A DNA stretch of 64,000 nucleotides from a virus. The stretch is taken from positions 1-64,000 of the IMG/VR virus record IMGVR_UViG_3300009610_000003. One strand, given 5' to 3'. The notes beneath the pieces are model-generated. The model made no database searches. It saw only the letters and a program-made list of their open reading frames with translations, and was not told where the DNA came from. Position numbers and translations under genes: made by a program. This document shows, piece by piece, positions 7,226-59,928 of the stretch (positions are counted from its first letter, which is position 1; each line of letters starts with the position of its first letter).

Positions 7226-7237
7226 AGCGGACCTCCG

Positions 7238-7711
7238 TTATGTCGCGACGGTAGCGACAATATTCGAGTTGATTTCCACGGTCATGTTCAGGGTCTGCAC
7301 GGTATTAGCGCCGCCACCGGCTTCCTGAGACTGCATACACAGCCCATAGAACAATCGCGTACTGTTGAGCGTGGCGATCTTGTCGTTCAGTTCGACCTTG
7401 AAGGCATAATTCTGCACCGATTGTGCCGCCGCGATAGATTTCAACTGACCGGGGTCAGTGTTTGCTAGGGCGAAGACATTTGCCATCGTCCCGGCATTCT
7501 TGGTGCCCTTCTGCTTTTTGGTGCGACCCTCGCCGATCAGGTCGGTGGTGATCAACTGGGCCGTGTCGCCGTAGCTGCCCATCTGCGTCCACGACTTCAT
7601 TTCTATCCACGCGACACCGGAATAGTCGCCGACCACGGCATCAACCGCAAGCTCAGTGAACGGGTTGGTGCTTATCCAGAACCTGCACCCTGCGACGGGG
7701 TAAAGCGGCAT
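7238..7711 (-). CDS. Tail tube protein, paralogue 2
   Basis: This is a 157-aa protein and the middle of three tandem paralogues. It shares the start MPLYPVAGCRFWIS, the block KSWTQMGSYGDTAQLITTDLIGEGRTKKQ and the end TVEINSNIVATVAT with its neighbours. It contains only the core domain. It is closer to the copy at 7727-8206 than to the extended copy at 6596-7225 (for example GEGRTKKQ versus GQSRTTKQ). The three may co-assemble or replace one another in the tube. Confidence 0.72.
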   Translation of the reverse strand: MPLYPVAGCRFWISTNPFTELAVDAVVGDYSGVAWIEMKSWTQMGSYGDTAQLITTDLIGEGRTKKQKGTKNAGTMANVFALANTDPGQLKSIAAAQSVQNYAFKVELNDKIATLNSTRLFYGLCMQSQEAGGGANTVQTLNMTVEINSNIVATVAT

Positions 7712-7726
7712 TGTTGCGCCCTCCGA

Positions 7727-8206
7727 TCAGACCGCCGCAATGGCGACGATGTTGGAATTGATTTCGATGGTGACGTTCAGGGTCTGCACGGTATTAGCGC
7801 CGCCACCGGCTTCCTGCGCAGACATGACGAGCCCGTAGAATTCCCGCAGGCTGTTGTTCACCTGCGCGCCGACCTTGTCGTTCAGTTCGACCTTGAAGGC
7901 ATAATTTGAAATCGACCCCGCTGCCGTGATCGATTTCAACTGGCCGGTGTCGGTGTTCGCCAAGGCGAAGACATTGGCCATGGTGCCAGCGTTCTTCGTC
8001 CCTTTCTGTTTCTTGGTGCGCCCCTCACCGATGAGGTCGGTGGTGATTAGCTGGGCAGTGTCGCCATACGACCCCATCTGTGTCCAGCTTTTCATTTCCA
8101 GCCAGACCACGGCTGAAAAGTCAGCGGCAACAGCATCCACCGCCAACTCAACAAACGGGTTGGTGCTGATATAGAATTTGCAACCTGCGACCGGGTATAG
8201 AGGCAT
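7727..8206 (-). CDS. Tail tube protein, paralogue 1
   Basis: The product has 159 aa and is the first-transcribed of three tandem paralogues, directly after the tail-terminator gene. It has the same core as the other two, including LITTDLIGEGRTKKQKGTKN and NTVQTLNVTIEINSNIVAIAAV, with a slightly different loop near residue 115 (VGAQVNNSLREFYGL). Each copy has its own short spacer of 12-15 bp and its own Shine-Dalgarno-like purine tract, so all three appear to be expressed. Confidence 0.72.
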   Translation of the reverse strand: MPLYPVAGCKFYISTNPFVELAVDAVAADFSAVVWLEMKSWTQMGSYGDTAQLITTDLIGEGRTKKQKGTKNAGTMANVFALANTDTGQLKSITAAGSISNYAFKVELNDKVGAQVNNSLREFYGLVMSAQEAGGGANTVQTLNVTIEINSNIVAIAAV

Positions 8207-8221
8207 CTGAGGCTCCTTTCA

Positions 8222-8647
8222 CTATACCGATATAGTTTCGAACGGTACAGTAACCGGGGTTCGCCACCGGTCGCCGTCCACATAACCCCCGGCTACTCTT
8301 GGTCGTGCTGTGATACGCACGCGGGTGCTGCCGGAAGTCAGCACCTTTGCTTGGAAATGCGACGCTATGGTTCCACCCATCTCTTGGGGGTACATCTCAC
8401 CGACATTCAGCGGGCACATGACGGCCAAGCTGAAAATGCCCATGTGCCGGTTCTGCTCGGTCGCGGTGATGGTAACCGTTTCGGGCGTTCCGGGGGAGAA
8501 GCCGACGACGATATATTCGTCGTCCTTGTACTCCCCGTTCTTCGGGTACTGGACGTTCGACCAGACGACGCGGCGACCGCCGGGCAGCGTGTTCAGGTGC
8601 CCTACCAGCGCTTCCAGTATCCGCCCCTCTATGGTCACCGCCACCAT
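8222..8647 (-). CDS. Tail terminator-like protein (DUF4128-like)
   Basis: The protein has 141 aa. The ATG at 8647 overlaps the preceding stop (ATGA), which sets this start over longer in-frame options. The sequence MVAVTIEGRILEALVGHL...YPKNGEYKDDEYIVVGFSPGTPETV resembles DUF4128-type proteins that occupy the tail-terminator slot between gp10-like neck proteins and tube proteins. Its presumed role is to cap the finished tail and join it to the head. Confidence 0.62.
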   Translation of the reverse strand: MVAVTIEGRILEALVGHLNTLPGGRRVVWSNVQYPKNGEYKDDEYIVVGFSPGTPETVTITATEQNRHMGIFSLAVMCPLNVGEMYPQEMGGTIASHFQAKVLTSGSTRVRITARPRVAGGYVDGDRWRTPVTVPFETISV

Positions 8648-9120
8648 CAGGCCAACCTCTCGGCGAGCCGCTTTTGATTGCTGGCCACGATGGCAGGCCA
8701 CTGCTGAACCGCGTGGTCTACGAAGTGCCGACCCGGCTGGTTGTAGCTTCGACCGAGGCTGTCGGTGCCCGTGAAGCCGTAGTTCTGACGCGCGGCATAG
8801 GCCGCGATGAAGCCGAAGCTGATGGGCGTGCCCATCTCCCACCCGGCGATCAGCGCCTCGATTGCCGCTGCGTTGCCCACCTGCGGACCTGTCGTCTTGC
8901 CATCGGCCTTTGGGTCAATCGGTGGCACCGAGGCCCCGGCCACGCCGACCAGCGAATTCTGCAAGAAGCTGGTGTCCACAGGCATGTTGCCGCCCGCCGA
9001 TACCGGCACCTTCATCAGGCGCACGACTTCCTGCACGCTCTCTTTGATGATGGCTTCGATGAAAATAGGCGTGTCCGCTGCCCATTTCGCAATCTGTGCC
9101 GTGAAAGTGGTCGTCGCCAT
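8647..9120 (-). CDS. Neck / minor tail protein (HK97 gp10-like)
   Basis: The product has 157 aa. The pattern PVDTSFLQNSLVG..., AAYAARQNYGFTGTDSLGRSYNQPGRHFVDHAVQQWP matches HK97 gp10-type head-tail joining proteins (early DTG/S..LR-like segment, middle 'Y....E/QNYGF', late 'G..F...A...W'). It lies between the MuF-like gene and the tail terminator. The stop and start overlap both neighbours. Confidence 0.65.
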   Translation of the reverse strand: MATTTFTAQIAKWAADTPIFIEAIIKESVQEVVRLMKVPVSAGGNMPVDTSFLQNSLVGVAGASVPPIDPKADGKTTGPQVGNAAAIEALIAGWEMGTPISFGFIAAYAARQNYGFTGTDSLGRSYNQPGRHFVDHAVQQWPAIVASNQKRLAERLA

Positions 9121-10166
9121 TACAGCATGACCTCCTTCTTGGCCTTGGCGTAGCGCACCGCTGCCGTCATGTAATCGATCTTGTACTCGGCATGGCAGCG
9201 GCAGTTGATAACGTCTTCCGGGAACGCGCCATGCGCACGGTCGCCGGGGTGCATCATCTTCGCCCCCGTCTCGGGCGAGATGAACGGCTGCTGGTAGGCC
9301 ACCTTCTTGCCGTGCAGGATGTAATGGCTGCGCCGCTCGCGCCCGTCGCGGTTGGTGCGCCAGATTTTCATCACGTCTTGTTCCCGCACCTTGCCGGTTT
9401 CGATCATCTGCCGGATGCTCTCGGCTTGGCCAGCGTGCAGGGAAAGGATCGTCTCGGTGCGTGCAATATTCTCGCCCCGAAGCTGCAAGAGGCTGTCGGA
9501 ATAGCGACCCACCATCTTGGTCACGTCTTCGGCCTTCAGCGCTGTGCCGCTGGCAAGCGCCCGCAGCACCTTGGGGTCGAAGCGGGCGTCACGGCGCTCT
9601 CGCGTGAGATAGTTGCGCAAGAGCGCCGGGTCGCCCGAGAGAAGTTCCAGCTTGGCGTTCATGACGTATTTCGCCATGGCGGGTGTCAACCCTACTAGGC
9701 CACCTTCTCGCCTTCCCGTGCGGGCGCTGACGCGCCCCACGATGTCCAGCGCCGTGGTGCGGGGGCCTTGCCCAAGCGAAATACCGATTGAAAGGGTTTC
9801 GCGCACGGCCTTGCGTGCGGTGTTGCTGAGATTGACGACCAGCTTGCTGCTTTCCACCCGCAGCCATTCCTCAGCCGGGGGCGAGCGCACGTTGAAGCGG
9901 AAGACGATGCGGGCACGTGCCGCCTCAGAGGTCAGCACGGCAGCGTACTTGTAGACATCGGCCACGGCGTCGGCGACCCCGGAAAAGACCACCGGGTCAA
10001 GGTTGAGCATCGACAGCGCATGTTCAATGTTGCCGGTCGCGATGGCCTCTTCCAACGTCTTGACCACCGTCTCGTCGGTGATGTCGTCAATGGCGTCAAG
10101 GAACGCCTGCCGCACCTGCGGCTCCATCTGGTCGATTAGTTCTTGCAGGGAACTGGGCAGCGCCAT
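9120..10166 (-). CDS. Minor head protein, MuF / SPP1 gp7-like
   Basis: The protein has 348 aa. The C-terminal third carries the Mu-F signature: ENIARTETILSLHAGQ, then KIWRTNRDGRERRSHY, then HPGDRAHGAFPEDVINCRC. Family members are minor head components made in low copy and sometimes linked to DNA ejection. The N-terminal part is helical with no recognised enzyme domain. In many phages MuF follows the portal directly; here it sits after the connector genes, a shuffled order. Confidence 0.85.
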   Translation of the reverse strand: MALPSSLQELIDQMEPQVRQAFLDAIDDITDETVVKTLEEAIATGNIEHALSMLNLDPVVFSGVADAVADVYKYAAVLTSEAARARIVFRFNVRSPPAEEWLRVESSKLVVNLSNTARKAVRETLSIGISLGQGPRTTALDIVGRVSARTGRREGGLVGLTPAMAKYVMNAKLELLSGDPALLRNYLTRERRDARFDPKVLRALASGTALKAEDVTKMVGRYSDSLLQLRGENIARTETILSLHAGQAESIRQMIETGKVREQDVMKIWRTNRDGRERRSHYILHGKKVAYQQPFISPETGAKMMHPGDRAHGAFPEDVINCRCHAEYKIDYMTAAVRYAKAKKEVML

Positions 10167-10540
10167 TACGACCCCACCACCAGCTTGTAGACGATGATGA
10201 CGCCTGCTTCCGGCACCCGCGTCGCGCGCTTGATGACCGTGGGCTCGCCGTCGATGAACAACCTGTCGCTCACATGCGGGATGATGCCCGCCGGTAGGGA
10301 CAAGGCCGGGATGATCACCTGTCTGTCGGTCGCCAGCACGGTCGTGCCATCGACCAGCCTGCGGTCAATCGGCGTGACCGTTCCGATGACCGAGGTCGTA
10401 TTGATGGTGGGTGTATCGCCGGGGTCCCACGGAATGCTGACTGTCCGCGTTTGCTGTTCCAGAACGAGCGCGCCCTGCTGAAACTCATCGATAATGCCAT
10501 GAGCGATATTGGCCATGTCTTGATAGAAAGCGCCGCTCAT
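10166..10540 (-). CDS. Putative head closure / connector protein
   Basis: The product has 124 aa. The ATG at 10540 overlaps the preceding stop (ATGA) and is preferred to a longer start. The sequence is mostly beta-type (VSIPWDPGDTPTINTTSVIGTVTPIDRRLVDG...VIIPALSLPAGIIPHVSDRLFIDGEPTVIKRATRVPEAG). That style, and the place between a head-tail adaptor and gp10-like genes, suggests a head-closure (stopper) protein. The assignment rests mainly on position. Confidence 0.45.
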   Translation of the reverse strand: MSGAFYQDMANIAHGIIDEFQQGALVLEQQTRTVSIPWDPGDTPTINTTSVIGTVTPIDRRLVDGTTVLATDRQVIIPALSLPAGIIPHVSDRLFIDGEPTVIKRATRVPEAGVIIVYKLVVGS

Positions 10541-11754: not shown

Positions 11755-12708
11755 TTACGCCAGCTTGTGCTTGAACTGGACGATACGGATGTTCTTGTTC
11801 TCGTACCGGCGGTTCCAGTTCGTGCCGACCGTTAGCTCAACGTTGGTCGGTGCGACACCCGTCGCCGTGCCGACCCACGCGACGCCGCGCGGGTGCATGA
11901 CGAAGTGCCGACGATTGATCAGGATGTCCTCGCCAGCGAGGCTATCGCGATCAGTCTCGGTCGGGGTCGGTGCGCCGCCGTCCGCGTAGCCGATAGCGCC
12001 AGCGCCGAACAGGTAGCTGGTGTACACGCCGGTCGCAACCGGCATCCCATCGTCCACGATCACCCGCTTGCCCATGTAATAGGGCAGGGTCGGGTTGCCG
12101 TCGCGGTCTTCCTTGAAGTCGATGAGGCCCTGCTTGACCAGCACGGCCACCGTGGCCGAGTGCATGGCGAAAGCGGTCAACTGGGCAGCGGCGTCGCCCA
12201 GCTTGTAGATGGCGTCCACCACGCTGTCGCCACCGATGACGGCGGCTGCGCCCGCGCCTGCGGAGATGTCGTGGATGTTGCCCGACATGCTGGCGGCCTT
12301 GAAGATGCCTTCCAGAATGGACAGCACCATCGCCTGCCAGCGGCGTGACCAGTATGCGCCAACCAGCCCGGCGATTTCCCGCATCGGGTCATCGCCCGAA
12401 AGGGCTTCGGCGAGGTCGTTGACACCCCACGCCTTGCCGCGAGCGTGCAGCACGGCGATGTCCTGCGCCGAGGTGATCTTATCGACGCCCAGCGGCACGA
12501 CATCGGACAAAATCTCTTCGACGCCGGTCAGGTCCTTCCAGAACGGCATGGCGAGCGTGGTGCCGCCTTTCATGCCGAACACGTTCAGTTCGCCGACCGT
12601 CTGGATAATGCCGCTCTCGTAGAAAGCGGACAAGGCGGTCGTGCGTTCAACCACGTAGGGGTTGAAGATTGCGGGGACGATGACATCAGCAATTTTTGTA
12701 GCGGCCAT
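11755..12708 (-). CDS. Major capsid protein (HK97 fold)
   Basis: The protein has 317 aa. It begins MAATKIADVIVPAIFNPYVVERTTALSAFYESGI and includes MPFWKDL, VLHARGKAWGVNDLAEALSGDDPMREIAGLVGAYW and AMHSATVAVLVKQGLIDF. These blocks are typical of HK97-fold capsid proteins that follow a separate scaffold gene in this type of phage. It has a good Shine-Dalgarno (GAGGAGG) before ATG. It lies downstream of the scaffold and upstream of connectors and is isolated by its own leader and trailing hairpin, consistent with high expression. No N-terminal delta domain is visible. Confidence 0.88.
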   Translation of the reverse strand: MAATKIADVIVPAIFNPYVVERTTALSAFYESGIIQTVGELNVFGMKGGTTLAMPFWKDLTGVEEILSDVVPLGVDKITSAQDIAVLHARGKAWGVNDLAEALSGDDPMREIAGLVGAYWSRRWQAMVLSILEGIFKAASMSGNIHDISAGAGAAAVIGGDSVVDAIYKLGDAAAQLTAFAMHSATVAVLVKQGLIDFKEDRDGNPTLPYYMGKRVIVDDGMPVATGVYTSYLFGAGAIGYADGGAPTPTETDRDSLAGEDILINRRHFVMHPRGVAWVGTATGVAPTNVELTVGTNWNRRYENKNIRIVQFKHKLA

Positions 12709-44396: not shown

Positions 44397-44581
44397 TGAC
44401 CTACGTCATCGACGGCTTCATCCCCCACTGGGACACCCCGGCCCTGCCCCGTCCCCACTGGACGACCATCGCCTGCACGAAGAGCCTCGCCGAGGCCCGT
44501 GCCCTGCTCAAGGCGGCCAACAGCGACCCTCGCTTCAAGCGCGGGCGGGTGCTGGCCGCCGGGGTGGAGGTCACGATATGA
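44396..44581 (+). CDS. Small unknown protein
   Basis: The product has 61 aa (MTYVIDGFIPHWDTPALPRPHWTTIACTKSLAEARALLKAANSDPRFKRGRVLAAGVEVTI). Its ATG overlaps the preceding stop. The 'L.EAR.LL.AA' helix between strands gives a small alpha/beta fold. Function unknown. Confidence 0.57.
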   Translation: MTYVIDGFIPHWDTPALPRPHWTTIACTKSLAEARALLKAANSDPRFKRGRVLAAGVEVTI

Positions 44582-44787
44582 GCGTCAGCCAGAACACCCA
44601 GCGCGGCCTTTACGCGCGGTCGTGCGACGAAACCCACTTCGCCCGCGACGCCGTCGCCGCCGAGGTCAAGGCCACGGCGCTGCGCGCCACCGGCCTTTAC
44701 CAGCGCATCGAAATGCGCAGGTGGAACAATGGCACCCGCCAGCAGGCCCGTTGGGAATACAAGATCATGGCGTGGCGCAAAGCCTGA
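44578..44787 (+). CDS. Small unknown protein
   Basis: The product has 69 aa (MSVSQNTQRGLYARSCDETHFARDAVAAEVKATALRATGLYQRIEMRRWNNGTRQQARWEYKIMAWRKA), basic. It is the last gene before a terminator at 44811. Confidence 0.57.
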   Translation: MSVSQNTQRGLYARSCDETHFARDAVAAEVKATALRATGLYQRIEMRRWNNGTRQQARWEYKIMAWRKA

Positions 44788-44810
44788 CCGGGGGAACCGG
44801 AAAATCCCGA

Positions 44811-44832
44811 GGGGGCCGCGAGGCCCCCTTTT
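44811..44832 (+). terminator. Rho-independent terminator
   Basis: The stem GGGGGCC/GGCCCCC with a 4-nt loop is followed by TTTTC, directly after the stop at 44787. Confidence 0.85.
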
Positions 44833-44867
44833 CATTTGGGGCCGGATCAGCGTACCGTGCCGCCGCG

Positions 44868-45317
44868 ATGCCCACCTTTGCGCACGATCCCTCCCGCGTT
44901 CACCCGCCTGCGAGCGCGGGCGGCTACCCGTCAATCGCCGAGGAAGAGCGGACATCGCGGGCAGTACCGGCACCACGCGAGGTCGTCCCGGAACCGCCAC
45001 GTACCCGCTCTGTCTACGACGACAAGATAACCCTTGTGTCCATCGCCTTGGGCGAAAGCGGGATGCCGCACCGCGTCGTGTTCGTGAACACGCATCGCCA
45101 GTACCGGGGACAAGGCCGGGCCACCAACATGCTCAACACCGCACTGGGCGATATGGACGCTGATGGCCGACCGTCCGAAATCTATGTCCGAAATGTTGAG
45201 CCCGACTGCGATGTCGGTCGCCTCGTCGCGTTCTTTGCACGTTTTGGCTACGGGCAAGCAGACCCCGACCCGGATGAACCCGACACGCCCCACCTCACCC
45301 GCCCCGCTGGTGGTTGA
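44868..45317 (+). CDS. GNAT-family acetyltransferase
   Basis: The protein has 149 aa. After a Pro-rich N-terminus, VSIALGESGMPHRVVFVNTHRQYRGQGRATNMLNTALGDMDADG contains the acetyl-CoA-binding motif A (R-G-Q-G-R-A). The sequence continues with IYVRNVEPDCDVGRLVAFFARFGYG, the usual GNAT end. The substrate is unknown; phage GNATs can modify host proteins, toxins or modified bases. The 3' end overlaps the next gene by 44 bp. Confidence 0.75.
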   Translation: MPTFAHDPSRVHPPASAGGYPSIAEEERTSRAVPAPREVVPEPPRTRSVYDDKITLVSIALGESGMPHRVVFVNTHRQYRGQGRATNMLNTALGDMDADGRPSEIYVRNVEPDCDVGRLVAFFARFGYGQADPDPDEPDTPHLTRPAGG

Positions 45318-50032: not shown

Positions 50033-50484
50033 TTTTCCAGTCGGTCAAGAATGAGGTTCACCCGCTCGTCGCCCAGCGCGGCCAGCCGGGTGACAATCGT
50101 CTGTAGGCTGCTCAGCACCGTGTCACCGCCATCGAACCTGTCGGTGGCGTACTGGTGGTGAGCGTCATACTTGTCGCAGCGGCGGCAATAGCGGGTGAGC
50201 CGGGCATTCACATCGGTGGCCACGGCCTTGCATTTCTGGCACTGGTAGGGACGGCGCTTGACCTCGGCCCGGAATGCCAGTTCCTCGGCCCGCGCCCGTT
50301 CCTGTCGCATGGCGAGAGCGGTCGGGGATGGCGAGTGGGTCGGAGATGGCGAGTATGGGGCCGGGGGCGCATAAGTCACGAAACCGATGTAGTCGTGATA
50401 ATTGAACTCGGCCAGCGTGATGCCCCGTTCCTTCAGATACCGGTAGACGTTCGCGTCAAGCTTCGTATCGACATCGATCACCAT
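50029..50484 (-). CDS. Unknown protein with zinc-ribbon
   Basis: The product has 151 aa from the ATG at 50484, just inside the 3' end of the polymerase gene. After a short folded start (LDANVYRYLKERGITLAEFNYHDYIGF) and a Pro/Ser linker, YQCQKCKAVATDVNARLTRYCRRCDKYDAHHQY has two C-x2-C knuckles. The end is helical. Probably DNA-associated, given the neighbours. Confidence 0.6.
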   Translation of the reverse strand: MVIDVDTKLDANVYRYLKERGITLAEFNYHDYIGFVTYAPPAPYSPSPTHSPSPTALAMRQERARAEELAFRAEVKRRPYQCQKCKAVATDVNARLTRYCRRCDKYDAHHQYATDRFDGGDTVLSSLQTIVTRLAALGDERVNLILDRLEK

Positions 50485-52457
50485 GGCTTCTTGGCCTCTC
50501 CCCAAGTGGGTCCTACCTCGAAATCGACAATCGTCGGGACGACGAGCGGCGTCGTTTCGACCATGATCGCCTGTGCCTTCTCGGCGACCGCCCGGTCGGC
50601 GGTGCTGATGTCAAGCTCGTCGTGCAGTTGCAGCATCGGCACGATGCCTTCGCGCCAGCAGGCGAGCATCGCCAGCTTGGTCTGGCGCGCGGCTGAGCCC
50701 TGAATGAGGTTGTTCAGGCTCTTGCGGGTGTCGGCCCGCCGCAGCATCGTCTTGGCCCATGGGTGGTCGGGGTTCTCGCGCCGCTTCATGGCCTCGTCGT
50801 AGCTGCACGGGCTCATCTTGTGCCCCTGCGCCTCGGCGCTCATGCGCGTGTCGAAATCGACATAGCCGCCCTCCCAGCGCGGGTAGTGCATCCGGGCACC
50901 GTCGATCAGCCTGATGTAGCCGCGCTCGTTGGCGGCCCGCTTGCATTCGTCCTCTAGGCTTTTGATGAACGGCAGGCGGTTGTGATAGTCGCGCAGCAAC
51001 TCTTCAGCTTCGGCGAGGCTCAGGCCAAGCTCTTCCGCCAGCGCCCGCTTGCCTTTGCCGTAGGTCATCGACAGGTTCAAAATCTTGGCGATGGCGCGGG
51101 GCCGGTCAACCATCTCGGCGACCATCTGGTGATAGTCGGTGCGCGGGTCGTCCAGATACCGCTGCACTGCCGCCTCAGCGCCCCGTGCACCGACCTTGGA
51201 CGCGAAGTGCACGGTCAGCCGTGGCTCCTGCTGGGAATAGTCAAGCGCCACCCAGCGCTCGCCCTCTTCCGGGAGGAAGCAGCTTCTGATCGCCACGCCG
51301 ATGTCGTCCTTGTCAGGGGAAGGCATCTGCTGAAGCGGTGGTTCCGAATAGCTGAACCGGTGCGAGCGTGTCCCCCCGGACGTGTCGCGATACTGGTGTA
51401 TCTCGGCGTGGATGCGGCCCCGGTATTCGTAGCTCAGCAGGAAGTTCTCAAGGAACTTCGACTTGGCTTCCTCGTACTTTTCAGCGACCGCACAGGCGCG
51501 CGGCAGCGGGTGGTCGTGCTTCTCCATCCAGTCTTTGGTGAAGCTCGCCTGTGAGGTCTTCTGGGTGCGCGGGAAGGCGATATGCTCGCGGCTGAACCAT
51601 TCTTCCATCTGCTTGGGCGAGCGCACCTCTTTCATGCTGGCGGCACGCTTCAGTTCCAGCAGCGAGCCGACCTCGGCCAGTGCCGCGTCGCGCTTGGCGG
51701 TGAACGCCTTCATGGTCTGTTCGATGCGGGGCATGTCCAGCCGGATGCCGCGCCGCCGCATGGCGGTCACCATGGGCAACAACGCCATCTCGGTGTCGTA
51801 GGCCCCGGTCAGGTTTTGCGCGTGCAACAGCGGTGCCGTGTGCTGCCACAGCGCCCATGTCTGCTCAGCGTCGGCGATGGCGTAGGGGGCCGCGAACTTG
51901 GCTTCCACGGCCCAGATGGCCTGAGCCGCCTTGGCGGGGTCGTAGCCCTCGCTTTCCACGGCCTGCGCCAGCAGCTTCTTGTCCTTGCCGGGAAGGCCGA
52001 TGCGATGGCAGCAATCGTCCAGCGCGTAGCTGAATTCGTTCTCGTCGGTCAACACACAGGCGGCGAGCGTGTCATCGATCTGCGCGCCGGTCAGGTCGGC
52101 CCCGCTCGTCGTCAGCCAGCCATAGTCGTAGGCGGCGTTGTGGAAGACCAGCCGGGTGGCGCTCTTGGCGATGTCGGTCACCCACTGCATGACCTCTGTC
52201 CGCGCGAAATGGTTGCCGTCAGCATGGTAGATCGGCGCATAGCCGCTGGTGCCCTCGGCGGCCCAGCTTACGCCGCAAATGTAACCTTGGCCGAAAGCCC
52301 AGCCGGGGCCTTTGCCATGCTCAAGACCCATGTCGCGGGTTTCGCAGTCAAGCACCACCACCGGATGCTGCCGCAGGTCGGGCAGTTCCGATGGTGGTTT
52401 CCAGTCGCTGTCGGGGCGGAACAAGCCAAGCTGCCCTTGTTTGAACCTCTTGGCCAC
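50478..52457 (-). CDS. polA: Family A DNA polymerase with 3'-5' exonuclease
   Basis: The protein has 659 aa. The exonuclease domain (residues ~30-215) has VVVLDCETRD, HNAAYDYGWL, and a late AIADAEQT. Polymerase motif A is WVALDYSQQEPRL (Asp406), motif B is RAIAKILNLSMTYGKG (~455-470), and motif C is LQLHDELD (~611-616). The position usually Phe or Tyr in the O-helix appears to be Leu. There is no 5'-nuclease domain, as is usual in phage T7-like and siphovirus enzymes. It should copy the phage genome, including templates with modified thymine. Confidence 0.95.
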   Translation of the reverse strand: MAKRFKQGQLGLFRPDSDWKPPSELPDLRQHPVVVLDCETRDMGLEHGKGPGWAFGQGYICGVSWAAEGTSGYAPIYHADGNHFARTEVMQWVTDIAKSATRLVFHNAAYDYGWLTTSGADLTGAQIDDTLAACVLTDENEFSYALDDCCHRIGLPGKDKKLLAQAVESEGYDPAKAAQAIWAVEAKFAAPYAIADAEQTWALWQHTAPLLHAQNLTGAYDTEMALLPMVTAMRRRGIRLDMPRIEQTMKAFTAKRDAALAEVGSLLELKRAASMKEVRSPKQMEEWFSREHIAFPRTQKTSQASFTKDWMEKHDHPLPRACAVAEKYEEAKSKFLENFLLSYEYRGRIHAEIHQYRDTSGGTRSHRFSYSEPPLQQMPSPDKDDIGVAIRSCFLPEEGERWVALDYSQQEPRLTVHFASKVGARGAEAAVQRYLDDPRTDYHQMVAEMVDRPRAIAKILNLSMTYGKGKRALAEELGLSLAEAEELLRDYHNRLPFIKSLEDECKRAANERGYIRLIDGARMHYPRWEGGYVDFDTRMSAEAQGHKMSPCSYDEAMKRRENPDHPWAKTMLRRADTRKSLNNLIQGSAARQTKLAMLACWREGIVPMLQLHDELDISTADRAVAEKAQAIMVETTPLVVPTIVDFEVGPTWGEAKKPW

Positions 52458-52460
52458 GGG

Positions 52461-52964
52461 TCAGATGCCCCGGTTCAGTTCCTGCCGCACGGCGCGCACG
52501 GCGTCGTCCATGCCCGTGTCGGCGTCGCTGGCGGCAGCGTGGTGGCCGCCGTTCTCGGGCGTGCCGCCATGACCGTTGGCAGCAACCTCTTTCGTCCGCT
52601 TGCCATAGATGTCGTGAACCCGCTGCATGGCTTCCTCGCGGGTGCAGCCCCAGCCCACGGCGAGCGCGGCGTAAAGCTCCTGCCCGTCATAGGGCCGCAC
52701 GGGCTTGCGCAGGCGGTCTGCGACGCAGCGGGCGTAACCGGCGATGTCGTCCCAGTGATCTTCGTGGCTGGGGTCGCCTGCCAGTATGCGGGCCATCTTG
52801 TGGGCGATCATATAGAGCGCGTGCCGCTGGGGGTCGGGCAGGATGGGCCAGTTGCGCTCGCGCTGCATGGCCCGCAGCATCTCCCACGTCGCCCGTGAAT
52901 TCTCGTTGAATTCGCCATGCACGGGGGCGCGCTCGCTCATCACCTTGGCGGTCTTGTCCATCAT
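52461..52964 (-). CDS. DUF6378-like protein
   Basis: The product has 167 aa. ERAPVHGEFNENSRATWEMLRAMQRERNWPILPDPQRHALYMIAHKMARILAGDPSHEDHWDDIAGYARCVADRL matches DUF6378, a small helical phage domain of unknown function, reminiscent of MazG-type nucleotide hydrolases by its 'K.ARI..G....DHW.D..GYA' core. The C-terminal ~60 residues are extra. Its place between the HD nucleotidase and the polymerase suits nucleotide metabolism. Confidence 0.65.
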   Translation of the reverse strand: MMDKTAKVMSERAPVHGEFNENSRATWEMLRAMQRERNWPILPDPQRHALYMIAHKMARILAGDPSHEDHWDDIAGYARCVADRLRKPVRPYDGQELYAALAVGWGCTREEAMQRVHDIYGKRTKEVAANGHGGTPENGGHHAAASDADTGMDDAVRAVRQELNRGI

Positions 52965-53545
52965 GCGCTTTCCTTCAGGTTGTAGCCCACGGCCCCGGTG
53001 CGCCGGTTCATCTGGTACAGCACGTCTTCGTGCCTTGCGTCGGCGCGCTCAATGAACTCATTCACGGCGTTGTAATCGTCGCGGGTCAATGTTGCCGCGA
53101 GCTTCAGGGCGGCCTGTCGCGTGCGCATGACGATGGCGATGGCGTACATATTGCCCATCAGCCGTTCCACCATGCCGAACTGCATTATTTCCAAGAGGTC
53201 GCACACCTTGATGCGGGCGATCAGGTTTGGATGCAGCGGCGGCAGTTGCGCCAGCTTCAGCTTGTCCATCTCCCGGCGTTCCAGCCGCTCAACGATGCTC
53301 TTGAGGTCGGGATTTTCCGCTTTCACGGGGAACGGGATGTCGCCGACGCCAAGCTCGCCCGCGTCGTGCAGGCGGATATAGCGTTCGACCGGGCCGCCCA
53401 GATCGCCGAAGATGGCCGCGTAGATGCAGGCCATCTGCCAGCTATGCTCAGCCACCGTCTGGGTCTGGATGGTAGGCCACGTGTGATACCTTCTGGTGCG
53501 GCCCGCGAAATACAGGTCGTCGGTCACGAAATCGGTTTGGGTCAT
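52961..53545 (-). CDS. HD-domain 5'-nucleotidase, YfbR-like
   Basis: The protein has 194 aa. HD signature: His in TVAEHSW, His-Asp in IRLHDAGELGVGDIP, and a late Asp in IKVCDLLE. The length and spacing fit YfbR-type dNMP 5'-nucleotidases. In hypermodified phages such enzymes can remove unwanted dNMPs or channel dUMP-derived pools, which fits the hydroxymethylase three genes upstream. The gene is preceded by its own shared-spacer promoter. Confidence 0.8.
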   Translation of the reverse strand: MTQTDFVTDDLYFAGRTRRYHTWPTIQTQTVAEHSWQMACIYAAIFGDLGGPVERYIRLHDAGELGVGDIPFPVKAENPDLKSIVERLERREMDKLKLAQLPPLHPNLIARIKVCDLLEIMQFGMVERLMGNMYAIAIVMRTRQAALKLAATLTRDDYNAVNEFIERADARHEDVLYQMNRRTGAVGYNLKESA

Positions 53546-53850: not shown

Positions 53851-54146
53851 TTCCATGTCTCCTTGACGCGCCAATGTTGAAGCAGGCGGATTTTCCCTGA
53901 CGAATTCATGCCCGCCAGTTTGACGGGGTCATCAAGGAACCCCTTGTCATGCAGCGGCTTCATGCGCGGCGAGACAGACCACTTGTCGATGTTCATCTCG
54001 GCAGCGATCTGAATTGAAGTCATGTAGCGTGGCCAGCATGTCCGCATGAAATTAAAGACATCCTCTTCCAATTTCGATTTCCCAACAATGCTTGCGGCCA
54101 GATGTGAAGTGTAGGGGTCGCCCGGTCGGGCTGATGCACTTGTCAT
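53847..54146 (-). CDS. Winged-helix DNA-binding protein
   Basis: The product has 99 aa from the ATG at 54146. DVFNFMRTCWPRYMTSIQIAAEMNIDKWSVSPRMKPLHDKGFLDD is a helix-turn-helix with wing (LAGMNSSGKIRLLQHWRV). N-terminal PGDPYTSHLAA is typical of a small phage family. It may regulate the surrounding operon. Confidence 0.65.
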   Translation of the reverse strand: MTSASARPGDPYTSHLAASIVGKSKLEEDVFNFMRTCWPRYMTSIQIAAEMNIDKWSVSPRMKPLHDKGFLDDPVKLAGMNSSGKIRLLQHWRVKETWK

Positions 54147-55129
54147 TTCTTCATCCTCCGTTTCAGCCACGCTGCCGTAGCAATTCGCCAGTCAGGCGCG
54201 GCAATTGAATGTGCCCAGTTCAGTGCTTCTTCCCAGTCATGCTCTTTGCGCAGTTTGTTCGCGAGGAACATGGGCCGCGCCGTGTTGGTCAGGAATTCAT
54301 TTCGCAGCTTCGGCACCTCGTCGGGGTCGGCGACATAGGCCCTGACATCGGCGTCGAATGTGTAGGGGTCGGTCACCAGCGGCAGCGTGCCGGGGTAGGC
54401 CGGATGACGGGACATCGCGTCAAGGCTCACCAGATGCTTGGCGCTGTCGTACATATGCCAGTTCCAAGAGAACTGGGTCATCGTGCCCATGCCGACGCCG
54501 ATGCGCGCGGCGAGGTATTCCTGCAAGATTGAGAAATGCACGACATTCGCGCCGTAGCAGCCCCAGACGATATCGTTGCTGCGGCAGGTGACGCCAAGAT
54601 CAAGCGCGTTTTTCTGAATGCGCAGGTAAATCTGGGTGTTGCAGGGGCGATCCTTTAAGCCAACGACACCCAGATCACATGGCGCGTCCCACATCTGGAT
54701 GACGGCTTGGCGGCTGGTCGGGTCGTCCTGCAAAATGCTAATTACTTTTTTCAACTGGTCTAGCGCCGTGTTGGTGTAGGCATTTGGGTTCTCGAAATGG
54801 CGACGCCACCGGTAGCCGTAGGCCCCGTGCATCTGTCCGTCTTCCTCGGCGAACCGGGCCGAGAAGTCGCCGACGAACTGGTCAAGCCATGTCGCGTCGT
54901 TCTGCCCGGCGAGCATCCACAGCGCTTCGTGTAAGTGAAATATAGGGTTTGCATCCCTGACCGGGTCGAACAGCACCCGCTGCATCGGTTGTGCATAGTT
55001 GGTGACCACCGGCCACGGCACGACGCGCACGTTACCCGCCCGCGACGGCTCAGGCACGCCGTACATATCAATCAGGGTGATTGCCTTCGGCCATGCGTCG
55101 TTGACGTTGGTCGCGTGTATCGTCCTCAT
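54143..55129 (-). CDS. Thymidylate-synthase-like dUMP hydroxymethylase
   Basis: The protein has 328 aa from the ATG at 55129 (ATGA overlap). Thymidylate synthase fold: catalytic Cys in DRPCNTQIYLRI, the nucleotide-binding CRSNDIVWGCYGANVVHFS, and FSWNWHMYDS. The 'PCNT' and 'SNDIVWGCYGAN' forms replace the PPCH and RSCD..LG.PFN of true thymidylate synthases and are typical of phage enzymes placed with base-modification genes. Predicted reaction: dUMP plus methylene-THF and water to 5-hydroxymethyl-dUMP. The neighbouring kinase and transferase support this over plain thymidylate synthesis. Confidence 0.82.
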   Translation of the reverse strand: MRTIHATNVNDAWPKAITLIDMYGVPEPSRAGNVRVVPWPVVTNYAQPMQRVLFDPVRDANPIFHLHEALWMLAGQNDATWLDQFVGDFSARFAEEDGQMHGAYGYRWRRHFENPNAYTNTALDQLKKVISILQDDPTSRQAVIQMWDAPCDLGVVGLKDRPCNTQIYLRIQKNALDLGVTCRSNDIVWGCYGANVVHFSILQEYLAARIGVGMGTMTQFSWNWHMYDSAKHLVSLDAMSRHPAYPGTLPLVTDPYTFDADVRAYVADPDEVPKLRNEFLTNTARPMFLANKLRKEHDWEEALNWAHSIAAPDWRIATAAWLKRRMKK

Positions 55130-55323
55130 ATCAGCCCTTCTCTCATCGCCAGCCATTCCGGCAGCGTCACGATGACGATGTCGCTGCCCCTTTTCCCTTC
55201 GATGTCGCACTGGCTCTTGGGTAACCAGACGGCATCTTTTTCCTCGCCGCTGTCGGACACCAGAATAGCCATGGGGGTTTCGTGGTGCAGGTGCAGTGTC
55301 AGGTCGATTGGCTCGCGGCTCAT
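55126..55323 (-). CDS. Small conserved protein in the modification operon
   Basis: The product has 65 aa (MSREPIDLTLHLHHETPMAILVSDSGEEKDAVWLPKSQCDIEGKRGSDIVIVTLPEWLAMREGLI). The 'H.ET..AIL...........WLPKS..........V..PEWLA...GL' layout is a known small phage family, often near replication genes. Function unknown. It is coupled by ATGA overlaps on both sides. Confidence 0.68.
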   Translation of the reverse strand: MSREPIDLTLHLHHETPMAILVSDSGEEKDAVWLPKSQCDIEGKRGSDIVIVTLPEWLAMREGLI

Positions 55324-55883
55324 AGTCCCAGCAACTCCATGGTCTTGGTCATCGCCTCGGCGCGTGGCAGCATGAACACGTTCAGGCCAATTTTCCGGTT
55401 GTTCCGGGTCGTGACGATCAGCGACCGGTGCTTGTTCCGGGTGTGAACCTCGTTGAACGGGTTGGGGCTTTGCGCTGCCTCGCGGCGCGCGTAGATCGAC
55501 GCCAGACACTCGTCTATCGTGGTGGCCAGCAGGATGACGGTGAGGCCCCCGGCGGCGTCCAGCTTGCGCAGGCGGGGTTTCCCCCAGCTACCCACCAGCA
55601 GCCCTTCAAACAGCACGTTCTGGCCCCGCAGGGCCTCGGCGACGATCAACGCTTCCTGATCGTTGGCCGCCCCCGGCCACGTCTGCGCGTCGCAGCCACC
55701 GGTCGCCTCATCGTAGCGCCCGATGACCGTCAGCTTGGCCTTGTCCCAGATGTAGGCCCCGACCTTGCGCCGTGGCCCGAGCGGGAGCTTGAGCGCCTTG
55801 TCCATGCCCCCGGCCCGTGCCATCGCCTCGCGGGCGATGAAGCTCTTGCCGGAACCCGACGCACCTCTCAACAGCACAATCAT
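55320..55883 (-). CDS. P-loop kinase, 5-hmdU DNA kinase-like
   Basis: The protein has 187 aa. Walker A GASGSGKS lies at residues 7-14, and a Walker-B-like hydrophobic strand is VLFEGLLVG. The fold is the small nucleotide/DNA-kinase type. In phages with complex thymines a P-loop kinase phosphorylates 5-hydroxymethyl-dU within DNA to make the leaving group for later substitution. The position next to the hydroxymethylase and aGPT-PPlase supports that assignment; sequence alone would say only P-loop kinase. Confidence 0.75.
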   Translation of the reverse strand: MIVLLRGASGSGKSFIAREAMARAGGMDKALKLPLGPRRKVGAYIWDKAKLTVIGRYDEATGGCDAQTWPGAANDQEALIVAEALRGQNVLFEGLLVGSWGKPRLRKLDAAGGLTVILLATTIDECLASIYARREAAQSPNPFNEVHTRNKHRSLIVTTRNNRKIGLNVFMLPRAEAMTKTMELLGL

Positions 55884-56320
55884 GGGCGATCCATTAGATA
55901 CTGCTTAAAGTATTCGTTGGCGAGCGCGCCCTTCCGAACCTGCTTCACGGCCTCGATTGCCTCGGCTCCGGTCAGGCCCCGCAGCCGCATCAGGGCCAAT
56001 GCCGCCACCAACCCCGAGCGGTTGCGTCCGCCCCAGCAATGCACCAGCGCGCAGCCGCCCTCCCGGATGTGGCGTTCGACACGCACGGCGGCATACTCGG
56101 CGACGATTGCCGCTTCGCCCGTGACCTTGCCGTCTGGCATGGTCTTCTGCTCGTACCAGCCCACCAGTTCGCGCACCCGCGCATCGGGCGTGTGCCACAG
56201 GTTCATCACGCCGGTAATGTCATGGTCGCCAATCAGGTAACGCACTTCGTTATCGGTCAAGGTGTGGGTTCGCGCCGACAGGTACATCCGGCCCGGCATC
56301 AACTCGTAGACCCGCATCAT
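55880..56320 (-). CDS. Dual-specificity-type phosphatase in modification operon
   Basis: The protein has 146 aa from ATG 56320 (a start 9 bp upstream is possible). The signature HCWGGRNRSG (Cys95, Arg101: C-x5-R followed by Ser) is that of cysteine-based dual-specificity phosphatases. A preceding 'ITGVMNLWHTPD' fits the family, and an Asp or other general acid upstream is plausible. It sits between the hmdU kinase and the base transferase with 4-bp overlaps, so it is translated together with them. Targets might be phosphorylated base intermediates, nucleotides or host proteins. Confidence 0.75.
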   Translation of the reverse strand: MMRVYELMPGRMYLSARTHTLTDNEVRYLIGDHDITGVMNLWHTPDARVRELVGWYEQKTMPDGKVTGEAAIVAEYAAVRVERHIREGGCALVHCWGGRNRSGLVAALALMRLRGLTGAEAIEAVKQVRKGALANEYFKQYLMDRP

Positions 56321-57318
56321 GCCGACCATTCCTTCGGATGCGCAAAGTCAGTGGTGGAAAGGTAGTTGAACCGCAGGTCTGACCACGTGTAGCCATGGTC
56401 GGCCAGCGATGCCGCCGCGTCTTTGCGCGGCTTGTCCCAGCCCATCATTTCGCCGAGATGCTTGAACGGGAACAGCTTCTTGCGCGCCTGCCAGATGGCC
56501 GATGTGTATTCCCACTCGTCCTCGGCCCGCCGGGCATATCTCAGTTCGCTGTCGTGGCTGCGGCCCGGATAGAACTTCTTGCTTTCCCAGCTTTCGCGGT
56601 ATTCGCACAGCAGCACCTGAAGCTGGAACATATCGATCTTGATGCCGTGGTCGTCGTCCAGCAGCGCCAGCGCGTCTTCGCAGCTTTCGTGCGCCAGCTT
56701 CAGGGCTTCCTTGGAATTGTCCCTGTTGCCCAGCCCCCGGTCGGGGAACAGGTAGCCGAGCGTGTGCCTCGGTGACCACGCGGCGAAGGGCCGGATGTCG
56801 GGCGTGCGCACCGGCAGGTCGTGGAAGCGCCGCAGGTATTCGATGAGCTTGATGGCCGCGTACCTGCCCACCGTCTCGATCTTCAGCACGTGTTCCCACG
56901 CGATTTCGAACCCCTCTTCCGGGGTGGCCGCGTCAAAGCACCGTTCGCACAGCTTGTCGTAGATGCCGATGAAGTGCTGGCAGTCGCGCAGGTATTCATA
57001 CATCTGGTCCGGGCGGCGCGCGGCGCGGCGTTCGATGCGCGTGGTGATGTGGCCTCGGGCAAAGGCGGTGTCCAGCCAGTGGCGCATCCACTGAGGGCTT
57101 TCCATGCACTTGCTGAAGGGCAGGCCGCGCCACAGCACCTCGCCGTAGGGCACGTTGTAGACGCCGATGTAGCAGCACCCCCGCCATATCGCTTCCTCGT
57201 CGCTAGCGGCGTCCTTGGCCATCTCGAATACCGTGGGCAACTGCGGGTCGGGGCCGCCGCTCGCAAGCTCCCACTTGCAGAACTCGGCGAAGAATTTCCG
57301 GTGTTCCTCGGTGTTCAT
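56317..57318 (-). CDS. aGPT-PPlase-type base transferase
   Basis: The protein has 333 aa from ATG 57318 (ATGA overlap). The pattern FFAEFCKWELASGGPDPQLPTVFEMAKDA...YIGVYNVPYGEVLWRGLP, KIETVGRYAAIKLIEYLRRF and ESWESKKFYPGRSHDSELRYAR matches the alpha-glutamyl/putrescinyl-thymine pyrophosphorylase superfamily. These proteins have a DNA-glycosylase-like helical fold and replace the phosphate group on modified thymine with an amine or amino acid. The likely donor cannot be read from sequence. Confidence 0.78.
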   Translation of the reverse strand: MNTEEHRKFFAEFCKWELASGGPDPQLPTVFEMAKDAASDEEAIWRGCCYIGVYNVPYGEVLWRGLPFSKCMESPQWMRHWLDTAFARGHITTRIERRAARRPDQMYEYLRDCQHFIGIYDKLCERCFDAATPEEGFEIAWEHVLKIETVGRYAAIKLIEYLRRFHDLPVRTPDIRPFAAWSPRHTLGYLFPDRGLGNRDNSKEALKLAHESCEDALALLDDDHGIKIDMFQLQVLLCEYRESWESKKFYPGRSHDSELRYARRAEDEWEYTSAIWQARKKLFPFKHLGEMMGWDKPRKDAAASLADHGYTWSDLRFNYLSTTDFAHPKEWSA

Positions 57319-58235
57319 TTCGTGAACCATGACAACTCCAATCCAAAACGCTTGCCCTGACCCTCGGTGCATTTGTCGCAGGGTTTCTGCGCCCCCCGGT
57401 CACGCGCGATCAGGTTGGCGCGCACCTCGTCGTAGGCGTCCCACAGGTCGGGAAGCGACCGTTCCGGGAAGCTCCCGATGATGTGGGCATCTCCCCAGTC
57501 ATCGCAGCAAAAGGGCACCGAGCCGTCGAACCACATCGGCATTTCTCTGAACGGCCTGACGCACATCCGGGCCAGCGGCGCAGCTACGGGTCGGACGTTT
57601 GGATAAATCTTGGATGCCCGGCCCGGCCCTACGTCAGCAAATCCACCTTGGTTGTGGTAGTGCAGGATGACGTTCTCGCGCGGCACGCGGCCTAGCTCGC
57701 TCTTGTAGGTGGTGGCGTCCTTGATGATGAGCGCCCGCCAGTTGGGGCCTCGGTAGCCGTAGGGGCTCATGGCCTCGTCGCCGAAGAACAGGTCGGCGGC
57801 ACCCTTGAACAGCACCGTGAACTCGCGCAGGCGCTTGGGTGTGTAGCAGTCGAGCAGGAAGCAGTTGACACCCTCGGCCTGCGCTTCGGCGACCCATTCC
57901 CTAAACAGCGGCAGGCCCAGCACGTTGACCAGATCGCCGTTGGTGCTGACGAGGAACTGTGCCTGCGGCAACAGCTTGCGGGCGATGCGGATGAACCTGA
58001 TGAACTGGGGGTGCATCGTCGGCTCGCCACGGTTGGCGATTTCAATTCTGACCTTCGGTTTCCAATCTCTCACGGCCCGACAATAGTCGATCCATAAGTC
58101 TTCGTGCATGAACTGGTAGGGGCCTTCGGCCCATGTCTGGTTGCGCAAGCCGCAGAAGACGCATCGCATGGTGCAGCCGCGCACGAATTCCGGCTTCAGC
58201 GTGTACGGCAGATGCCGCCCGCCTGTATTTCCCAT
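57315..58235 (-). CDS. Radical SAM / SPASM enzyme of the modification cassette
   Basis: The protein has 306 aa from the ATG at 58235, behind AAGGGGAG; an in-frame GTG at 58244 is less likely. The radical SAM cluster motif is GCTMRCVFCG (Cys21, Cys25, Cys28), followed by RIEIANRGEPTMHP. The C-terminus has extra Cys groups (MCVRPF, FCCDDWGD, PCDKC), a SPASM-like region for auxiliary iron-sulphur clusters. In phages such as Pseudomonas M6, a radical SAM enzyme rearranges an amino-acid-substituted thymine. First gene of the cassette, after a terminator. Confidence 0.82.
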   Translation of the reverse strand: MGNTGGRHLPYTLKPEFVRGCTMRCVFCGLRNQTWAEGPYQFMHEDLWIDYCRAVRDWKPKVRIEIANRGEPTMHPQFIRFIRIARKLLPQAQFLVSTNGDLVNVLGLPLFREWVAEAQAEGVNCFLLDCYTPKRLREFTVLFKGAADLFFGDEAMSPYGYRGPNWRALIIKDATTYKSELGRVPRENVILHYHNQGGFADVGPGRASKIYPNVRPVAAPLARMCVRPFREMPMWFDGSVPFCCDDWGDAHIIGSFPERSLPDLWDAYDEVRANLIARDRGAQKPCDKCTEGQGKRFGLELSWFTK

Positions 58236-58392: not shown

Positions 58393-58725
58393 TTATGCGT
58401 GTATCTGTGTCGGCGACGGACTAAACACGTGGTGCACTATCGGCCCGACGATGAACGTTCCCACATAGTCATCGGCAGCGTCGATTGGCACCTCGCCCCC
58501 GGTCGCCACCAGCACGATGGCGCGCTTTTCCAGCGGCATGTCCGGGGCGACGAGGAACCACACGCACAGCACGCTGTCCGGGTCGGGACCAACGTGCAGT
58601 GCTTTCGCGCCCTGCGGTATCTCATGCACCGTCAACTGTTGCGCGGCCACGGGGTATTTCCAGATCGTACCCATGGGCGGGCCGTTATCTGGCGCTGGCC
58701 CAGCACGGGCGTTTGTCGTTTGCAT
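58393..58725 (-). CDS. DUF7352-like protein
   Basis: The product has 110 aa from the ATG at 58725. GTIWKYPVAAQQLTVHEIPQGAKALHVGPDPDSVLCVWFLVAPDMPLEKRAIVLVATGGEVP follows the widespread phage DUF7352 pattern ('IWKYP......I.MP.GA..L.V......CLW..VD......R...V.GTG'). Function unknown. Promoter P5 precedes it. Confidence 0.72.
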   Translation of the reverse strand: MQTTNARAGPAPDNGPPMGTIWKYPVAAQQLTVHEIPQGAKALHVGPDPDSVLCVWFLVAPDMPLEKRAIVLVATGGEVPIDAADDYVGTFIVGPIVHHVFSPSPTQIHA

Positions 58726-58749
58726 GGATGTTCCTTTTCTCATCGGCGA

Positions 58750-58788: not shown

Positions 58789-59928
58789 TTATTTGGTGAC
58801 CTCGTAGCCCTTGTGAACGACGCCCAGTTTCTCGTCGCCTCGGCCATGGCTGGTGCGCCACCAGCGCTTTGCCGGGCACTTCTGGCAATGATACCTGTCC
58901 GGGGTCACCGGTTCCCACTCATGCGTGCAGGCGGGTATGCGGCGGCTTTGGCACCAGTGCCCGCGCACCGAGTGGTAGCGGTGGTGCCTGTCGGTGTGTC
59001 CGCCCTCGGTGACGCGCCGGTAGCTTTCCTGCGGGCTCAGGTGCAACTTGACGCTGTTGTGGCTGACCAGCACCTGACTGTGCCCCTTGAGCAATATGCG
59101 CTTGTGCGGCTCGTCAGTGACCATCAGCACGTGCTTCGTGGGCCGCGTCAGCAAGAGCAGCATGATGATGATCTGCTTCATGCTGCCAGCGGAAGAGCGC
59201 AGGGTTCGCAGCTTGTCCACGACCGTCATCTTGTCGAACGGCGGCTTGCTGTAAAATTCGAAGCTGTGGCTGCGGCAAATCTCGTTGGCCACATGCGTGT
59301 TCCACCACTTCCCCTCAAGACCGGGGTCGCCATAGATCATCTTCCGCAGCATCAGCCGCGACGTGTTCAGTTCCTGCGCCAGTTCCAGTTCCCGTTCGAA
59401 CGTCATCGGGCGGTGCAAGTGGTAGATCAGCGGGGTGACGCCAACATCGTCCAGACCGAGTGCCGTGGTGGTTTTCCGCCGCGCCTCGGACGCCGAGTAG
59501 ACCTTGCCATGATCGAAGAAGTAGCCCACCCGCGTGTCGGCGGTCGGGTCGTCGGGGTTCATGCCGGGGATGACCTCGGCGTAGGCGCGGAAATCCATTT
59601 CCAGCCACGTAAGCTGGTGCGGCGGTCGGGCAAATTCATGCTGTTCCAGCATCAGCGGCGCGGCCTTATTGACCAGTTCGCCGACCAGACGACTGGCCGG
59701 TGCATCCAGCACAAAGCGATGCGCCATGCGCAGGCTGAGCGGCGAGATGCCGCTGTAGTTCAGCGCCTTCTGGTTGGCCAGCAGCTTGTCGATCAGGTTG
59801 GGCTGCGGCTTGGGCTTCCTGACGAAGCCCCGCAGCAAGCCGTCGATGTCTTTCTGGGTGCCGCCGTGCGCCTGCTTGAGGGCAGTGCGCACGGTCTTTG
59901 AGGGGGTGCCAGCGGGGAAGGTGGTCAT
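58789..59928 (-). CDS. Unknown protein with C-terminal zinc-binding region
   Basis: The product has 379 aa. The N-terminal two thirds contain PLMLEQHEFARPPHQLTWLEMDF and VGYFFDHGKVY, a pattern found in a conserved phage protein of unknown role. The C-terminus (HRYHSVRGHWCQSRRIPACTHEWEPV, YHCQKCPAKRWWR, KLGVVHKGYEV) has a Cys/His cluster, probably zinc-binding. It overlaps the helicase gene by 4 bp. Confidence 0.68.
   Translation of the reverse strand: MTTFPAGTPSKTVRTALKQAHGGTQKDIDGLLRGFVRKPKPQPNLIDKLLANQKALNYSGISPLSLRMAHRFVLDAPASRLVGELVNKAAPLMLEQHEFARPPHQLTWLEMDFRAYAEVIPGMNPDDPTADTRVGYFFDHGKVYSASEARRKTTTALGLDDVGVTPLIYHLHRPMTFERELELAQELNTSRLMLRKMIYGDPGLEGKWWNTHVANEICRSHSFEFYSKPPFDKMTVVDKLRTLRSSAGSMKQIIIMLLLLTRPTKHVLMVTDEPHKRILLKGHSQVLVSHNSVKLHLSPQESYRRVTEGGHTDRHHRYHSVRGHWCQSRRIPACTHEWEPVTPDRYHCQKCPAKRWWRTSHGRGDEKLGVVHKGYEVTK

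Follow-up and report, generated by a model that had tools for sequence, protein, structure and literature searches.

A cassette of six minus-strand genes lies at 54143-58235 of the first 64,000 bases (hereafter the window) of IMG/VR record IMGVR_UViG_3300009610_000003, the 82,172-bp record of an uncultivated virus, and is predicted to make a hypermodified thymine after replication. The nucleophile used by this clade of transferases would be a cyclitol, which in the window phage would be oxidised by a BtrN-like radical S-adenosylmethionine (SAM) enzyme; drawn from comparison with homologues, this reading seems to us about evenly poised between right and wrong. From 5' to 3' the genes encode the radical SAM enzyme, a transferase, a dual-specificity phosphatase (DSP), a P-loop kinase, a 65-aa protein and a dUMP-hydroxymethylase-like protein, and all junctions within the chain are 4-bp ATGA overlaps, with the start codon on the preceding stop. 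The original prediction had named four of these genes (radical SAM enzyme, transferase, kinase and thymidylate synthase (TS)-like hydroxymethylase) as one operon with 4-bp overlaps; their place, strand and identities were borne out by Pfam, PHROG and tblastn comparisons, while the cassette proved larger than described, the DSP gene and the 65-aa gene having been overlooked.

The assignment of the 333-aa transferase to the aGPT-PPlase superfamily, also made originally, agreed with the fold that was found. Its AlphaFold model (pLDDT 88.9) had one convincing Foldseek match in the PDB, phage PaMx11 gp46 (8Z2M/8Z2N, probability 1.00), named in the PDB title as 5-phosphomethyl-2'-deoxyuridine (5-PmdU) glycinyltransferase; the top three matches had E-values of 2e-3 to 9e-3 and TM scores of 0.46-0.56, and all others a probability of 0.20 or below. 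Comparison with the ADDT alignment by hhalign gave 99.5% and 6.6e-23. The Pfam ADDT score (1.6e-5, 25.2 bits) fell just under the 26.2-bit gathering cut-off, and that of a member of the same clade, L079, reached 33.7 bits (L numbers denote individual viral loci or records compared with the window). The ERR and G-[RP] motifs were present in the alignments, and one cysteine was invariant in 93 of 93 sequences. By its modelled fold and by profile comparison, the 333-aa protein is a member of the 5-PmdU transferase superfamily.

Relatives were gathered from IMG/VR with separate baits (transferase, kinase, radical SAM enzyme, phosphatase and synthase), and a tree was built from 93 dereplicated transferases. 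The window protein fell in a distinct clade of 32 sequences (support 100/99), in which every transferase (32/32) had a DSP as neighbour or fusion partner, compared with none of the 61 sequences outside it. A myo-inositol-1-phosphate synthase gene was found near the transferase gene in 27 of 32 clade members and 6 of 61 others (Fisher P = 7e-13), the six being a Cr30-like group in the neighbouring clade. A glutamate four residues before the conserved cysteine, present in all 61 other transferases, has become Gln or Ala in 23 of 32 clade members (0/61 outside, P = 8e-15), with Gln in the window protein. No member of the clade was found in a search of bacterial genomes. Of the pathway foreseen by the original prediction, hydroxymethylation, phosphorylation and substitution stood by homology, while an amino acid or amine as the substituent was not supported by these comparisons, given the clade, the DSP, the synthase and the lost glutamate.

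In eight relatives the synthase gene directly precedes the transferase gene, in the slot taken by the radical SAM gene in the window. The relatives' synthase aligns over its full length to Mycobacterium tuberculosis Ino1 (1GR0, 8.8e-116), from which it differs in sitting in phage DNA-modification cassettes. When the synthase was used as bait, 77 viral loci were fetched, 57 of which carried 5-hydroxymethyl-2'-deoxyuridine (hmdU) kinase, helical-domain or transferase genes: 25 had a transferase of the window clade, 5 an ADDT, and 27 a helical-domain or kinase gene recognised mostly by a two-sequence profile (a Pfam HMUDK_hel check of eight such loci left six above the cut-off and two below, and L178 passed separately). 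The remainder had a TS-like gene only (3) or none of these genes (17, many of them short contigs).

Caulobacter phage Cr30 (L128, NC_025422) is an independent case of synthase-transferase association, in a cultured phage. TET, an ADDT transferase, a weak glycosyltransferase match and the synthase lie within about 6.5 kb at 3706-10179, and near them, at 12054-12599, is a P-loop kinase that carries a terminase small subunit annotation. The adjacency of transferase and synthase and the nearby kinase in Cr30 gp114-gp129 recall the relatives of the window, whereas a TET oxygenase stands in place of a nearby TS-like hydroxymethylase, no DSP or radical SAM gene is near, and the weak glycosyltransferase match lies alongside. 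No base modification of Cr30 was reported in the literature searched, and searches of the open literature, subscription papers and preprints lying outside their scope, turned up nothing that connects an inositol synthase of phages with DNA modification. Near the Cr30 modification genes, a homologue of the CBASS inhibitor Acb3 was also observed (L128:15855-16655, Pfam 1.8e-68).

Two further settings of the synthase were noted. A third viral group (L165-L206, for example L178 5375-12939) combines it with a TS-like gene, a dUTPase, an FkbM methyltransferase and a C5-cytosine methylase, with a weak-to-moderate HMUDK_hel match and no recognised transferase. In Stenotrophomonas phage Moby (L129, 9001-13621), an inositol-3-phosphate synthase lies beside QueC-like, queuine transferase-like and QueE-like genes, which are 7-deazaguanine genes, with no hmdU transferase found in its vicinity; some phage synthases thus fall outside the system described here.

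For the radical SAM enzyme, a family profile of four relatives had BtrN as its only significant PDB match (1.4e-11; 1.1e-18 once a fifth row was added). A twitch enzyme, BtrN oxidises the aminocyclitol 2-deoxy-scyllo-inosamine (PMC9012708) and serves as 2-deoxy-scyllo-inosamine dehydrogenase in butirosin synthesis. The two proteins have in common a radical SAM core, a twitch domain and a matching arrangement of auxiliary-cluster cysteines, all four of which align (C228, C246/247, C289 and C292; the CxxxCxxC cysteines are C24, C28 and C31, in 309-aa open reading frame (ORF) numbering), while overall identity is low and the substrate in the window phage would be a cyclitol, possibly on DNA. On sequence comparison the enzyme is BtrN-like and not of the M6 type, and oxidation of a cyclitol is its predicted reaction. 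The family profile found relatives in seven lineages (window, L022, L145, L207/208, L056/057, L211 and L066), all of which neighbour a window-type transferase and a DSP; synthase and radical SAM genes occur together in L022 and L145. A role like that of gp53 of Pseudomonas phage M6 had been considered and was rejected, as no BLAST similarity to gp53 was found. Also rejected was a shared extra gene as an explanation of the phages that have the radical SAM gene only: L056 and L066 share a 253-257 aa unknown protein that the window does not have. The enzymes of these two loci (L056:3500-4489 and L066:5256-6254) carry an eight-residue insertion between the first and second cysteines relative to CxxxCxxC.

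The DSP retains an intact Cx5R motif (HCWGGRNRS) and a PD loop, and the C, R and D residues do not vary among the 10 sequences compared. Natural transferase-DSP fusions occur in L079 and L138/L139, in different subclades and in each case downstream of the synthase. None of 14 phage records contained an inositol monophosphatase gene, and one was found in all 14 control bacterial genomes; the absence fits a dedicated DSP, but it is a weak point, since bacteria generally have such an enzyme. Inositol-dehydrogenase-type GFO/IDH genes were found in one of the 14 records, which was not that of the window phage. Of the 61 transferase loci that lack a DSP, 7 have a low-molecular-weight (LMW)-type phosphatase close to the hmdU kinase, and 6 of these 7 are of the glycine/FAD (flavin adenine dinucleotide) type, which suggests that phosphatases recur in hypermodification pathways. 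Loci with such an enzyme, whose fold is unrelated to that of the DSP, include L006 (phage Simon, 7474-7995), L061, L062, L063, L083, L084, L085 and L090.

Profiles built for this analysis for pyridoxal phosphate (PLP), FAD, GNAT and M6-type radical SAM enzymes found no match in the window or the remaining record. The original statement that no clear tailoring enzyme adjoins the set was not borne out: the radical SAM enzyme is BtrN-like and not M6-like, and a conserved phosphatase lies within the cassette. Near a more distant GNAT candidate that had been proposed, the ORF at 44401-45000 had no Pfam match, other frames there not having been put to Pfam.

With M6 gp58 the TS-like protein shares 39% identity (39-41% with the M6, Pam3 and Bordetella phage proteins). 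It has the PCN and RSNDxxWG motifs in common with phage dUMP hydroxymethylases, and its family profile matched the CMP 5-hydroxymethylase MilA best in the PDB (8.8e-33, versus 4e-21 for the best thymidylate synthase). By sequence it groups with phage dUMP hydroxymethylases and MilA and away from true thymidylate synthases, which upholds the original assignment. The kinase matched phages Simon (1e-13) and PaMx11 gp49 (1e-6) in tblastn and is more weakly related to M6 gp54, with which its Walker A motif is conserved; both expected parts of a 5-hmdU kinase, the P-loop kinase and an HMUDK_hel partner, are encoded in the record. An HD enzyme, which probably removes competing dTMP, has the same position in M6 (gp59), PaMx11 and Pam3, and gene order from kinase to DNA polymerase also matches these three phages. 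With the gp46-like fold of the transferase, homology gives good support to hydroxymethylation, to phosphorylation in DNA and to replacement of the phosphate. Several hmdU-kinase-like proteins (phrog_800; NC_007809 gp054, NC_028770 gp49 and NC_025422 gp114) are publicly annotated as terminase small subunit, probably a propagated error.

Whereas the enzyme identities, operon, clade, associations and fold come from sequence and structure comparison, we infer from them each of the reactions, the cyclitol and how the last three of the following five steps are ordered. The TS-like enzyme would make 5-hydroxymethyl-dUMP while the HD enzyme removes dTMP, so that hmdU enters DNA, and the P-loop kinase with the helical-domain protein would phosphorylate its hydroxymethyl group in DNA to give 5-phosphomethyl-dU. 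The transferase would then displace the phosphate with a nucleophile, most likely myo-inositol or its phosphate and not an amino acid; the DSP would take a phosphate off the cyclitol phosphate donor, or off the cyclitol already on DNA; and the BtrN-like enzyme would oxidise a carbinol of the cyclitol to a ketone. Most relatives would obtain the donor through their own inositol-1-phosphate synthase, and the window phage from host inositol or a related host cyclitol.

To our knowledge, the substituents that replace the phosphate of phosphorylated hmdU in phage DNA are amino acids or amines. We tentatively propose, with somewhat more doubt than trust, an undescribed class of base in which inositol is joined, as an ether or via phosphate, to the 5-methyl carbon of thymine. 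A transferase-phosphatase pair supplied by a phage synthase would make it, and in a few phages, that of the window included, the radical SAM enzyme would oxidise it to a reactive keto-cyclitol in DNA. If true, this would extend the known chemistry to ethers of polyols and, where the radical SAM enzyme acts, to bases that bear a carbonyl group, and would explain the inositol-1-phosphate synthase of many phages, which is otherwise hard to place in a virus. The cyclitol idea is testable in cultured Cr30, where the synthase gene adjoins that of a transferase from this superfamily, and a transferase that couples a polyol to a DNA base could serve as a labelling tool.

Several points weigh against the cyclitol and its oxidation. 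No inositol-1-phosphate synthase, intact or decayed, was found in the 82-kb record of the window phage, nor anywhere in the records (which may be incomplete) of four other lineages that have the radical SAM gene only. The cyclitol inference for the window phage consequently rests on the clade and the radical SAM enzyme, and the donor in that phage would be host-derived or of another kind. The relatives' synthase itself scores below the NCBIfam equivalog cut-off and could therefore make a different cyclitol phosphate. The similarity to BtrN peaks in the auxiliary-cluster domain (30 bits) and is weak in the core (15 bits), twitch enzymes are few in the PDB, and the structure model of the radical SAM enzyme is poor (pLDDT 57) and unfit for a fold search. 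With a Foldseek E-value of just 2e-3 for gp46, the fold assignment depends instead on the probability and specificity of that match and on the profile comparison. The altered glutamate is retained by 9 of the 32 clade members, and the P values above treat related phages as independent, ignoring shared ancestry. Finally, the presence of a phosphatase does not necessarily imply a phosphorylated donor, since some cassettes of the ADDT/FAD type have an LMW-type one.

This last point is also what lends some credit to a DSP that cleans up unreacted 5-PmdU phosphate and is unrelated to the donor, with the synthase there for some other purpose; such a role, compatible with either donor, seems unlikely to us, as the DSP is restricted to one transferase clade and twice fused to the transferase, and the synthase stands beside the transferase in most of the clade and in the distinct Cr30-type cassettes. 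Equally improbable is the standard pathway, with glycine or some other amino acid joined to 5-PmdU by the transferase, an M6-like rearrangement of the product by the radical SAM enzyme and, for want of a PLP decarboxylase, a carboxyl group kept on the final base. The transferase has the superfamily and fold of a glycinyltransferase, the cassette occupies the same position as in M6 and PaMx11, and a radical SAM enzyme is present; yet that enzyme matches BtrN and not gp53, the glutamate invariant in the 61 other transferases is Gln here, all clade relatives have a DSP and most the synthase, and neither a PLP nor an FAD partner was matched by the profiles.

A change of donor in the phages that have the radical SAM gene only was also weighed. 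The transferase would there have switched to some other hydroxylated metabolite of the host, such as a sugar phosphate or glycerol phosphate, making the synthase dispensable and giving the radical SAM enzyme that group to act on; all five such lineages are without the synthase yet retain the DSP, and in the window the radical SAM gene occupies the synthase slot of the relatives. The presence of both genes in L022 and L145, however, makes the radical SAM enzyme compatible with an inositol product, and the motif FQLQVLLCEYRES of the window transferase is the same as in the inositol-synthase-linked relatives, and we hold a switch to be a minor possibility. An inactive cassette, or one that goes no further than hmdU, leaving thymine or hmdU only in virion DNA, appears very improbable, as all reading frames are intact with ATGA coupling, the catalytic motifs are retained and the cassette is kept across dozens of phages.

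The two nearest known systems, whose chemistry was taken from PDB titles, PMC6449724, PMC9476957 and general knowledge, differ from the window in their tailoring genes. PaMx11 encodes the 5-PmdU glycinyltransferase gp46, an FAD enzyme (gp47), an acetyltransferase (gp48), the kinase (gp49), the helical domain (gp50) and the hydroxymethylase (gp51). It has in common with the window the transferase fold and the same order of kinase, hydroxymethylase, HD enzyme and polymerase; in the window, radical SAM and DSP genes replace the FAD enzyme and acetyltransferase, the transferase is of a different clade with its invariant glutamate gone, and the helical-domain gene lies apart from the kinase. The M6 cassette (gp51-gp58), which leads to 5-NedU (PMC6449724), likewise has a transferase of this superfamily, a kinase, a hydroxymethylase, a radical SAM enzyme and synteny with DNA polymerase, but its gp53 is an unrelated 480-aa type, and the window has a DSP and neither a PLP enzyme of the gp52 type nor Nmad5. 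Similarity to cultured phages at the DNA level was limited to short helicase matches. The features discussed are collected in Table 1.

Table 1. Features of the cassette and its surroundings; coordinates of the radical SAM, transferase, kinase and TS-like genes were set by conserved start codons.
Feature	Position	Strand	Evidence
BtrN-like twitch/SPASM radical SAM enzyme, 306 aa	57315..58235	-	Radical_SAM 7.6e-10, SPASM 2e-5 (Pfam)
5-phosphomethyl-dU transferase homologue (ADDT/aGPT-PPlase2 superfamily), 333 aa	56317..57318	-	Fold, profile, tree
Dual-specificity phosphatase (DSP), 146 aa	55880..56320	-	Pfam DSPc 5.2e-10
P-loop 5-hmdU DNA kinase-like protein, 187 aa	55320..55883	-	tblastn to phage homologues
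Small protein with no assigned function, 65 aa	55126..55323	-	phrog_8389 1e-10; homologues in L017, L018, L043, L045
dUMP hydroxymethylase-like protein, thymidylate synthase fold, 328 aa	54143..55129	-	phrog_5131 1.6e-89; Pfam Thymidylat_synt 6.5e-24
HD-domain YfbR-like 5'-deoxynucleotidase	52961..53545	-	Pfam YfbR-like 2.3e-8
Family A DNA polymerase, downstream of the cassette	50478..52457	-	Pfam DNA_pol_A 6.6e-44; 33% identity to PaMx11 polymerase
5-hmdU DNA kinase helical-domain protein (HMUDK_hel, PF18723)	record 64783-65583, just outside the window		Pfam 6.7e-36

Directly upstream of the cassette lie genes for a DUF7352 protein (58393-58743) and a 379-aa protein without a Pfam match (58789-59928), both of which are kept in some relatives.

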